Of a stretch of DNA of 50,136 bases, positions 40,438-43,419 are shown piece after piece (positions within the stretch are counted from its first letter, which is position 1; the number at the start of each line of letters is the position of its first letter). Made by a program: the position numbers and the translations under genes. The notes under the pieces were generated by a model. It was not told the origin of the DNA and searched no databases. It saw nothing but the letters and a program-made list of their open reading frames with translations. The stretch is taken from assembly GCA_902761225.1 (NCBI GenBank), contig CACWJQ010000023.1, forward strand, positions 1 to 50,136. Reading direction: 5' to 3'. Source of the DNA: an uncultured Lachnospiraceae bacterium. Its GTDB lineage: Bacteria > Bacillota > Clostridia > Lachnospirales > Lachnospiraceae.

Positions 40438-41802
40438 CTAAAATTTCAGGAATATCATCAGCATTACCAGGGCAAAACCTGCTACAAATGCAAGTGTACC
40501 CTTGTCATTATCCTTACCGGATGCGATATGGGGTATCTCCTCTATGGTGGTAAAGATCAGTGCTCCGCCTGCGATTGACATTATGTACGGAAGGGCATAC
40601 GGGAACAGTACAGCAACCACAACGGTGATGATCCCCAAGAGAGGTATCGGAACGCCGGATACTATTCCCATGAAAAATGCTTTGCCGGCTTTTGTTCCCT
40701 GATCTCTTATGGGAAGTGCCACACAGATCGCTTCCGGAATATTCTGAAGTGCTATTGCCACCGCCAGAACAATCGCAACCGATGAAGATATCCACTCGGT
40801 CTTCATGAAATGAGCGGCATAGATCGCACCGATGGCTATTCCTTCCGGAACATGATGGATCACCTCCGTAAGCATAACCTTCATATCCGTGCCAAGTCCG
40901 CTTTCAGGTCCCTCTGTGATACTGGAATAAACATGTGTATGCGGGACCAGCTTATCAAGAAGGATCTGTATGACAACACCCATGCAGAAGCATATGGTCA
41001 CGGGAATGATCCCGTTCGCCATCTGCAATCCTTCGATAGCAGGATTTAACATTCCCCATACAGCGATTGAGACCATGATACCGGAGCCTGATCCAACCAG
41101 TATCATACGAAAATTCTCTGAGATCCGTTCCTTACGGGCATATATGACAGCCGAGCCGAGAAGAGTTCCTATAAGCGGGATGAGCATCCCGAATACCGTT
41201 TCACTGTCTGACAGGGTCTGTGATCTGTCCAGATGAGATAAAAGCGAGCGGAGTCCTATGAAGATAAGTATCGTTCCGCCCATGATCTCGGACCCGGACT
41301 TATAGCGGTCTCCGAAAATGCTGCCTATCTTAACGCCTGCTGCCGATATGGCGAAAGTGGTGACTCCGATAACCAGCACGGCAAGGATCACATTGGGCAG
41401 ATTTCCCGCATCCAGCACCTTTACCGGGACAGCCACAAATGTTATGCCCACCGCAAGTGCATCGATACTCGTTGCAACCGCCATCATGAACATGGTCTTA
41501 ACATCAAAGCCCGGCGACATCTCCTCTTCCGGTGACAGGGCTTCCCTGATCATATTCCCGCCGATCAGTGACAGGAGTCCGAATGCGATCCATGGTGCTA
41601 TCATGCTGATATATTTTTCAAAATTAGATCCTATCAGATATCCGATAAACGGCATTATCGCCTGAAAGGATCCGAACCATAAACCACATGCAAGATATTC
41701 TTTTGTAGTTGCCTTTCCCGATGCCAGGCCCTTGCATATGGATACCGCAAAAGCATCCATGGCAAGTCCCACCGCAAGGAGGATCAGCTCGAACAATCCC
41801 AT
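40438..41802 (-). CDS. mntP: MntP manganese exporter fused to a GufA-type ZIP metal transporter
   Basis: A single uninterrupted 454-codon frame. Residues 1-190 are a complete MntP: LAVGLAMDAFAVSICKGL with D16 and a repeat ATSIDALAVGI with D114, the acidic residues needed for Mn2+ export in Escherichia coli MntP, and the usual end near RSLLSHL. Residues about 204-454 are a complete ZIP protein of the GufA subgroup. It has LIPLIGTLLGSA, EVIHHVPEGIAIGA (metal-site H316/H317, E320), ALQNIPEAICVALP (Q353, N354, E357) and EEIPHIASG. About 14 transmembrane helices in all. MntP exports Mn2+, whereas ZIP proteins usually move Zn2+, Fe2+ or Mn2+ inward. GAGGTAG precedes the ATG. It lies 54 bases after the PAS-GGDEF gene. 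Confidence 0.92.
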   Translation of the reverse strand: MGLFELILLAVGLAMDAFAVSICKGLASGKATTKEYLACGLWFGSFQAIMPFIGYLIGSNFEKYISMIAPWIAFGLLSLIGGNMIREALSPEEEMSPGFDVKTMFMMAVATSIDALAVGITFVAVPVKVLDAGNLPNVILAVLVIGVTTFAISAAGVKIGSIFGDRYKSGSEIMGGTILIFIGLRSLLSHLDRSQTLSDSETVFGMLIPLIGTLLGSAVIYARKERISENFRMILVGSGSGIMVSIAVWGMLNPAIEGLQMANGIIPVTICFCMGVVIQILLDKLVPHTHVYSSITEGPESGLGTDMKVMLTEVIHHVPEGIAIGAIYAAHFMKTEWISSSVAIVLAVAIALQNIPEAICVALPIRDQGTKAGKAFFMGIVSGVPIPLLGIITVVVAVLFPYALPYIMSIAGGALIFTTIEEIPHIASGKDNDKGTLAFVAGFALVMLMIFLKF

Positions 41803-41856: not shown

Positions 41857-43317
41857 CTATATCTCCACCACAGTAAATGTATTCCTTACCTTCTTGGATT
41901 CATAAAGAGCCTTATCGGCGCTTCCTATCATGTTATTAACAAGTTCCGTTCCATAGGCTCCTCCGAAGCTCATGGTTATGCGAAGCTCCGGACAGCTCTC
42001 AAGGCGGATCTCACTTAATGACGACTTAATGGATGAGAGTTTGTTCTCAAGCCCTTCTTTCGTAATATCGAAAAACACCATCATGAATTCGTCACCGCCG
42101 TAACGAAGGACAACATCATTTTTACGGACGGACTGTTCCAGCATCTTAGCGACTTTCTGGATCACCACATCGCCACCCTGATGTCCTGCAGTATCATTTA
42201 TCGTCTTAAACAGATCTATATCACCCATGACAACTGCCTTACAGGGCTCATACACAAGCTTCTCGTCCAGGAACTTCCTGTTGCGGATCCCGGCAAGAGA
42301 ATCGGTATAGACCTTCTCCTCGAATTCGGAGATCTTCTTCTGCTGGGCAAGATTATGCAGCTTGGCATCCGTGGTATCCTGGCAGCCATAGACAATGTGC
42401 GCAAGCTTTCCGTTCTCGTCACGGTCTCCCACCATGAAGATTCCGTTGAACCAGCGGTGTGCGCTTTCACTGTAGAACTCATGGCTCGATGATCCGTGCT
42501 CCTCAACAGCTGCGATTATCGCATCCTTATCCAGCCACTTATGCAGACCCTCGCGAAAGCTCTCGGCAACCGTGGCATCCACATTGTTTTTCAGGAATAT
42601 GAATGCATCGGGATCTTTTTCAGCCTTCTCAACATACTCGTTGGTACTGATCATACGATAGCTCATATCGTTTACGTCAATGAACATGGAGAAATTGAAT
42701 ACCTTGCCGATAGCTTCGATGATCCTCAGATATTCCTCCAGCTCCTGCTGTGCGGTAATATCAAGATAACAGCCCATGTATATCTCCAGCGAACCGTCAT
42801 CGGGACGCCTGATGAATCTTCCCGCACCGGTAACCCATATGATCTTTCCGTCCTTCCTCTGCATACGGTAGGTGGCATGGGTTATATCCGGTAGTTCACG
42901 GTGAATGCGGACCGAATCCCAGAACAGCTTAACGATGGCCTCTCGCTCCTCAGGAACGAGTGTCTTGACCCAGCTGTCAAACTCATTGGGAAGATCATCC
43001 AGTCCGTTATAACCAAGCATCTGCCTGGTCTCATCGTTGAATTCGAAGCTGAGCATATTCTCATCTCGGTCAAAGGTACAGAAATACATGCCCGCCCTCA
43101 AGCCCTTGGCGAACATATCCTCCCTGTACTTTGCGACCCTGTACTTGGTATTTGCTTCCTCAATCCTCCGGTTACACTCATTTATGATCCCGCGCTGTTC
43201 CTCGGGATAAGCAGACACATCAAAAAGAGGTGTCAGATCTTCAACTCTGATACCGGCCTCTGCGGCAAATTTACCTACACCGTTATCAATACTGTCCACT
43301 GCTGAATTTCTATCCAT
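41857..43317 (-). CDS. PAS-GGDEF diguanylate cyclase, soluble
   Basis: Start ATG 43317 (MDRNSAVDSIDNG) has AAAGGAG 6 bases upstream; upstream in-frame starts lack this. The 486-residue protein shows no transmembrane helix. A PAS/PAC domain lies at about residues 75-200 (TYRMQRKDGKIIWVTGAG, YMGCYLDIT), a second PAS-like domain at about 205-325, and a GGDEF domain begins at YTDSLAGIRNRKFLDE with LRYGGDEFMMVFF. The I-site RxxD (RKND) lies five residues before GGDEF, so feedback inhibition by c-di-GMP is expected. It is probably a cytoplasmic sensor of a small ligand or redox state. Its leader contains a terminator-like hairpin (43391-43419). Confidence 0.92.
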   Translation of the reverse strand: MDRNSAVDSIDNGVGKFAAEAGIRVEDLTPLFDVSAYPEEQRGIINECNRRIEEANTKYRVAKYREDMFAKGLRAGMYFCTFDRDENMLSFEFNDETRQMLGYNGLDDLPNEFDSWVKTLVPEEREAIVKLFWDSVRIHRELPDITHATYRMQRKDGKIIWVTGAGRFIRRPDDGSLEIYMGCYLDITAQQELEEYLRIIEAIGKVFNFSMFIDVNDMSYRMISTNEYVEKAEKDPDAFIFLKNNVDATVAESFREGLHKWLDKDAIIAAVEEHGSSSHEFYSESAHRWFNGIFMVGDRDENGKLAHIVYGCQDTTDAKLHNLAQQKKISEFEEKVYTDSLAGIRNRKFLDEKLVYEPCKAVVMGDIDLFKTINDTAGHQGGDVVIQKVAKMLEQSVRKNDVVLRYGGDEFMMVFFDITKEGLENKLSSIKSSLSEIRLESCPELRITMSFGGAYGTELVNNMIGSADKALYESKKVRNTFTVVEI

Positions 43318-43390
43318 CAGGGCTCCTTTCATTCCGATGATAAGATCCCGGAAATCTGAAAACATATATAGGATTTTACCACTTTCAGGC

Positions 43391-43419
43391 AAAAAAGGGC
43401 AGGAATCTTTCGATTTCCT
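43391..43419 (-). terminator. Terminator-like hairpin inside the leader of the PAS-GGDEF gene
   Basis: On the minus strand AGGAAATC-GAAA-GATTCCT (43419-43401) with one bulged A is followed by GCCC and six T (43396-43391). An outer GGCAG/CTGCC pairing (43432-43428 with 43402-43398) competes with the lower stem. It lies 74 bases before the gene's ATG and downstream of a possible -10 TATACT (43500-43495), so it could be an attenuator of an unidentified leader element. Confidence 0.5.

Follow-up and report, generated by a model that had tools for sequence, protein, structure and literature searches.

MntP and ZIP proteins and the make-up of the joined chain

Metal exporters and importers usually belong to families encoded by separate genes, and the ZIP family usually brings metals into the cell. 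Members of the MntP family are described, in the portion of PMC4608589 consulted, as proteins of 188 ± 14 residues with 6 transmembrane segments (TMSs) and a fully conserved aspartate in helices 1 and 4. Bordetella bronchiseptica BbZIP and E. coli ZupT belong to the GufA subfamily of ZIP proteins (PF02535). BbZIP has its transport site at M1, which includes H177 and E211; M2 is an auxiliary site, disruption of which lowers zinc transport only modestly; and M3, on the intracellular side, belongs to the path of release (consulted portion of PMC11549095). In the part of PMC11952358 consulted, M2 is likewise described as auxiliary, and in ZupT it is reported to prefer Fe2+.

The window analysed in this study, a stretch of 50,136 nucleotides from an uncultured Lachnospiraceae bacterium, contains a complete gene on its minus strand (40438–41802; ATG at 41802–41800, stop at 40440–40438) in which members of both families are joined in a single chain of 454 residues. 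Translation of this frame contains no internal stops, and the plus strand of the same interval is interrupted by stops. On the minus strand, residues 1–190 (41233–41802) constitute the MntP half with six helices, as delimited by the Pfam match and the helices of the structure model; residues 191–202 (41197–41232) constitute a linker that is acidic and poor in Lys and Arg by charge counts and that would lie outside the membrane; and residues 203–454 (40441–41196) constitute a GufA/BbZIP-type ZIP half with eight helices, recognised by phmmer similarity to BbZIP and by AlphaFold and Foldseek. Pfam Mntp (PF02659) covers residues 31–184 (E = 3e-42; 144.4 bits, above the gathering score of 24.4), and Pfam Zip (PF02535) covers residues 313–448 (E = 7e-12; 45.7 bits, above the gathering score of 35.1). 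The NCBIfam MntP model covers residues 6–190 at 89.7 bits, under its equivalog cut-off of 214, and the ZupT model covers residues 210–448, also under its equivalog cut-off. The single-frame fusion of MntP with ZIP claimed in the original prediction is borne out by the 454-residue frame and both Pfam domains, and the coordinates and residues given for it (D16, D114, H316, H317, E320, Q353 and E357) were correct, the minus strand having been left unstated.

Like the MntP (YebN) family (TC 2.A.107, PF02659), the first half has six helices, about 190 residues, and D16 and D114, the aspartates of helices 1 and 4, which are invariant in all 54 distinct fusions collected here. In contrast to that family, a whole ZIP follows MntP, and the chain departs from the family pattern of ~190 residues, six helices and no further domain by having 454 residues including the ZIP. 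The second half shares the eight-helix core and the M1 and M3 residues with BbZIP and ZupT but sits behind MntP and carries His, Gly and Ile in place of N178, S106 and E240, respectively. A stand-alone GufA ZIP of the same genome (G000:C1:83156-83917) belongs to the same family and is 33% identical to the fusion ZIP half; unlike the latter, it is encoded on its own, on another contig, and has Asn at the N178 position and Glu at the E240 position. No single-chain MntP-ZIP protein was reported in the open-access papers retrieved on this subject, as judged by titles, the beginnings of abstracts and the consulted part of PMC7997004, and the words "fusion" and "fused" are absent from the part of PMC4608589 consulted on the MntP family. 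Both parts thus come from known families and the single-chain architecture is the new element, which is solid as to its existence and of moderate certainty as to its mechanism.

Distribution, origin and selection of the fusion

The search for the same fusion in other genomes, proposed together with the original prediction, was positive in the same family, in named Lachnospiraceae and in a second family of the same class (f66). After removal of identical proteins, 54 distinct fusions were obtained, the window protein included, with which the others share 42–85% identity along the full length. In overlapping samples, matches spanning both halves occurred in 11/397 genomes of the same family (the source genome among them), 12/31 of the same genus, 11/392 of an order sample and 4/391 of a class sample, and in 35 of the 115 genomes of f66, in which two further genomes carry MntP alone and one carries just a fragment of the ZIP half. 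A scan of 84,980 named species genomes with patterns for the fusion HH motif and the QN[IF]PE motif yielded 7 fusions among the best 80 loci kept, including one from the isolate Butyrivibrio sp. NC2007 and others from metagenome bins called Lachnospiraceae or Clostridiales. An f66 protein (L201) is identical to one of the named-genome proteins, L066, from "Clostridiales bacterium isolate RGIG8001" of water-buffalo rumen. An early C-terminal end is found in two of the 54 fusions, L145 (442 aa) and L197 (428 aa). The MntP-ZIP pairing is found in some rumen and gut clostridia, is common to many species and is kept by selection. As a side observation, L146 (G399:C90, a contig of 3469 bases) and L163 (G873:C6) are 97.3% identical over 1976 bases although they are assigned to two families, which reflects either recent transfer or a short mis-binned contig. 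Since L146 lies on a short contig and is near-identical across families, a mis-binned contig is the likely explanation, and 11, not 12, may be the correct count for the genus.

The junction corresponds to residues 187–203 of the window protein, comprises 15–17 residues and is in frame in 54/54 distinct fusions, among which the linker length is nearly constant. The sequencing error, or relatives with two separate genes, for which the original prediction had allowed is not what the relatives display. Mis-joining of two genes by sequencing or assembly was considered and ruled out, given the 54 distinct in-frame fusions, one of them from an isolate genome (L064), and such an artefact is left with a negligible probability. 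Neither did eight stand-alone MntP loci (L014–L018, L159, L160 and L165), chosen from more than 20 and inspected over ~1.5 kb on each side (less in L159), have a ZIP gene nearby, and neighbouring mntP and ZIP genes of a pre-fusion kind were not found among them.

In the MntP-half tree (37 fusions and 23 stand-alone rows), the fusions form one clade as drawn, with support of 100/97, and in the ZIP-half tree (37 fusions and 80 stand-alone rows), they lie on one side of a branch with an SH-aLRT value of 98. Both trees are unrooted, the ZIP tree was built by a quick method and has long branches, and L164 and the group of L149–L152 lie on long branches. One fusion event is the simplest reading of these trees, and the fusion is probably of single origin. 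Several fusion lineages coexist within one genus (L001, with L011 at 53% and L149–L152 at 47%), and in the MntP tree certain copies of the family are paired with copies of f66 (L007 with L162), and for these reasons gene transfer of the fusion between lineages appears likely. Carriage on plasmids or phages was not seen: in a protein search of 72,556 plasmid records and 50,697 phage records, no record covered 80% of the fusion protein, a DNA search of the plasmids gave no match, and a viral-contig scan with the MntP half found no relative.

Both halves are under purifying selection. By simple Nei-Gojobori counting in 12/12 disjoint close pairs, dN/dS was 0.00–0.13 for the MntP half and 0.00–0.27 for the ZIP half, and such low values show no decay of either half. 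Of the two, the ZIP half is more loosely constrained, with 30/256 invariant columns among the 54 fusions compared with 55/198 in the MntP half. It is also looser than its stand-alone relatives, having 33/256 invariant columns in 37 fusions versus 54 in 80 stand-alone ZIPs, while the MntP half is alike in both contexts (55 invariant columns in 37 fusions, 53 in 22 of 23 stand-alone MntPs, row S_L132 having been dropped).

Metal sites, fold and orientation of the two halves

The site residues of the ZIP half were mapped through the phmmer alignment of the fusion with BbZIP. M1 consists of H316 (40855–40857, minus strand), E320, Q353 and E357, corresponding to BbZIP H177, E181, Q207 and E211, of which we take E181 and Q207 to be M1 ligands as well; all four are invariant in 54/54 fusions and 80/80 stand-alone ZIPs. 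M3, formed by D283, H288 and H290 (40933–40956, minus strand; BbZIP D144, H149 and H151), is invariant in the same two sets. The auxiliary site M2 (N178, D208 and E240) is not kept in the window ZIP, where these positions are occupied by H317 (40852–40854, minus strand), N354 and I386 (40645–40647, minus strand). Thus, of the original prediction that both modules keep their metal-site residues, the part concerning D16 and D114 of MntP and M1 and M3 of the ZIP half stands, and the part concerning M2 does not.

The replacements in M2 differ in their distribution. The N178 position is His in 54/54 fusions and Asn in 80/80 stand-alone ZIPs, and the D208 position, N354 in the window ZIP, is also Asn in 80/80 stand-alone ZIPs. 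At the E240 position, Glu is retained in 16/54 fusions and replaced by Ile, Val or Thr in 38/54, and 80/80 stand-alone ZIPs have Glu. Because the named-genome scan relied on the HH and QN[IF]PE motifs, the stand-alone ZIPs taken from it are biased at residues 353–357 and not at 317 or 386; ~12 of the 80 came from a Pfam search of fusion genomes and the own-genome search instead, and two ZIP open frames of more than 330 aa (L088 and L120) lie outside the length filter of the set. On the MntP tree of 37 fusions, a single change accounts for the loss of E240, and the E422–P424 spacing is one residue shorter in 21/21 E240-lacking fusions versus 0/15 E240-bearing ones. The S106 position is Gly in 31 fusions, including that of the window, Ala in 9, Thr in 9, Cys in 4 and Ser in 1, and Ser in 80/80 stand-alone ZIPs. 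M408 is fixed in 54/54 fusions. A very divergent fusion, L164 (G1023:C28; 42% identity), has HHASEG in place of HHxPEG and keeps Glu at the E240 position. With His at N178 in all 54, Glu240 lost on one branch, and M1 and M3 fixed, the fusions amount to a natural experiment in remodelling of the ZIP binuclear centre.

The changes at M2 and S106 may be read as a sign that a working transporter has altered its metal preference, and not as the loss of a site. S106 is a front-line residue of the pore entrance, and added histidines were tied to zinc preference in work on ZIP8 (consulted part of PMC10372143); as the latter lie at other positions, the step from them to zinc in the fusion ZIP is a loose one. 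In BbZIP simulations with M2 empty, metal passed to the cytoplasm in 1/5 runs versus 4/5, and release from M1 was hampered (consulted portion of PMC11549095), which speaks against full activity without M2.

By sequence, BbZIP is the only convincing solved relative of the fusion (phmmer, residues 197–449, E = 8.5e-21), and the MntP half matched no solved structure up to E = 1. The AlphaFold model, based on an alignment of 36 rows, has a mean pLDDT of 84.7 and a pTM of 0.69, its MntP half being weaker because only 8 of the 36 rows cover it. Foldseek matched the model best to entries of BbZIP (best E = 4.3e-6, probability 1.00), with TM-scores by target of 0.62–0.81 and rmsd of 5.5–8.6. As a hydropathy cut-off by itself yielded a fragmented set of helices, these were assigned with the help of the model, which has six in the MntP half (the element at 33–89 being counted as a pair) and eight in the ZIP half. 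BbZIP has an extra helix before the core that is absent from many GufA members (PMC9873690, in the part consulted); on a speculative note, the last MntP helix may stand in its place.

Averaged over 37 fusions, the loops expected inside contain 2.8 Lys+Arg at residues 25–37, 3.1 at 219–236 and 2.9 at 357–379, with 2.6 at 84–102 and 3.2 at 282–320, the last two presumed-cytoplasmic loops being net acidic. The linker loop (188–202) has a mean of 0.4 Lys+Arg and 3.2 Asp+Glu. Taken with the model-aided helices, this pattern suggests that the linker lies outside the membrane and that both halves take the orientation usual for their families. An alternative, in which the ZIP half offers metal a second way out, or hands it to MntP or receives it from there, and the entire chain is an exporter of wider range, must be weighed against this pattern. 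Transport in either direction is possible in principle for elevator-type transporters, and MntP is the better conserved half and comes from an exporter family. The apparently normal ZIP orientation and the invariance of M3, the intracellular release site, oppose such a wider-range exporter, which we regard as decidedly unlikely, and the ZIP "used in the export direction" put forward in the original prediction finds no support, the Lys/Arg pattern fitting the usual orientation.

Possible mode of action and genome context

The complement of the fusion genomes bears on what each half may contribute. Another MntP above the Pfam cut-off is present in 2 of 11 fusion genomes (G004 and G277), and the fusion is the only MntP in 9/11. 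Within the genus, stand-alone MntP (E ≤ 1e-20) occurs in 6/19 genomes without the fusion and 1/12 with it, many fusion-bearing and genus genomes being incomplete. Since stand-alone MntP is mostly absent beside the fusion, the latter mostly stands in for MntP. A separate ordinary ZIP is present in 11/11 fusion genomes by Pfam search, so these genomes do not depend on the ZIP half as their only ZIP importer. An Nramp-type (MntH) importer was found at E ≤ 1e-10 in none of the 31 own-genus genomes, and manganese may thus reach the cell by a different route; a ZnuA-type binding protein is present in 27 of these 31.

Our main reading, to which we give a probability of about one half, is that of a Mn2+ exporter with an active, selectivity-shifted ZIP in one protein of 14 helices. 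Judging from its family and intact residues, the MntP half would pump Mn2+ out, mostly replacing stand-alone MntP, and the ZIP half would move a divalent metal inward via M1 by the elevator mechanism of its family. The metal preference of the ZIP half would be shifted, perhaps to Zn2+ or Fe2+ over Mn2+, as His at M2, the lost Glu240 and the change at S106 suggest. The fusion would then expel Mn2+ and let in another metal at a single spot in the membrane, in a fixed 1:1 amount. In favour of this reading stand the intact frame with both Pfam domains, the 54 distinct fusions and their grouping in both trees, the low dN/dS of both halves, the invariance of M1 and M3, the modest effect of M2 disruption in BbZIP, the Lys/Arg pattern, and the fact that in 9/11 fusion genomes no other MntP exceeds the cut-off. 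Several points count against it, among them the ordinary ZIP in 11/11 genomes, the faster change of the ZIP half, the partial loss of M2, the hampered release in the BbZIP simulations with M2 empty and the two acidic loops.

Faster change and partial M2 loss could also indicate a role of the ZIP half other than transport. The main rival explanation, which appears rather unlikely, holds that the ZIP half is a non-transporting, metal-sensing or dimer-forming partner that tunes MntP, with M1 and M3 binding metal as a receptor. The rebuilt M2 with E240 lost in 38/54, the lower constraint on the fusion ZIP than on stand-alone ZIPs with the MntP half alike in both, and the ordinary ZIP kept in every fusion genome are consistent with it, as are the dimeric state of BbZIP (PMC9873690) and the intracellular autoregulation of a ZIP (PMC10256678), each as given in the consulted part of the source. 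A mere scaffold, however, would not need M1 and M3, invariant in 54/54, or the eight predicted helices.

Kinetic coupling of the two movements is possible under that main reading, and the "metal exchange unit" of the original prediction would fit the data. A coupled exchanger proper, in which Mn2+ export and the entry of Zn2+ or Fe2+ through the ZIP half are linked, allosterically or by gating common to both, seems quite unlikely. If it were true, one protein would swap the metal stock of the cell, beyond just lowering manganese. One conserved chain that holds an exporter and a member of an importer family, each apparently in native orientation, makes the coupling of metal removal to metal entry testable.

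At the other extreme, the halves might be independent transporters tethered for co-production and equal dose, with no functional interaction. The short linker of nearly constant length agrees with a tether of this kind, as does a genome context that is mostly variable: in a BLASTP comparison of 32 fusion loci, in which families present in at least 3 loci were listed, broad sharing of neighbours was limited to four close relatives (L181–L184). Fusion ZIPs nevertheless lie on their own side of a branch, and H317 and M408 are fixed in 54/54, suggesting a specialised role and not a plain joined copy; mere tethering therefore appears very unlikely.

Downstream of the fusion in the window lies a gene for a ThiF-family protein. 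Upstream, a gene for a PAS-GGDEF protein (41857–43392, minus strand) ends 54 bases before the fusion start on the same strand, and the two are possibly on one transcript. Neither neighbour is among the families common to at least 3 of the 32 fusion loci. In the whole window, Rfam yielded no match at gathering score, the sole match with E ≤ 1 being a sub-threshold rnk leader (28.4 bits versus a gathering score of 55), and the riboswitch permease invoked in the original prediction as a second manganese-linked locus is thus unsupported by Rfam. Nor was a match at gathering score found in 20 fusion loci. An mntP leader was likewise not found by Rfam in 20 stand-alone mntP loci, so its absence near the fusion is not special; a lysine riboswitch is present elsewhere in one stand-alone mntP locus (L031).

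The neighbouring genes in the 32 fusion loci do not reveal which metal the second one would be. Those that recur are, by our assignment, presumably ABC-transporter-like genes (5 and 6/32 loci), a regulator-like family (4/32), and enolase-like and xylose-isomerase-like genes (3/32 each). An ordinary ZIP lies within 10 kb of the fusion in 3/32 loci (L171, L180 and L188). In L171 (G116:C7:126000-145000), from a genome of the same genus, the fusion is ~3.7 kb from an ordinary ZIP gene, and the vicinity contains presumable genes for FeoB, for enolase, for two regulators of the DtxR/MntR type and for two phosphoglycerate mutases.
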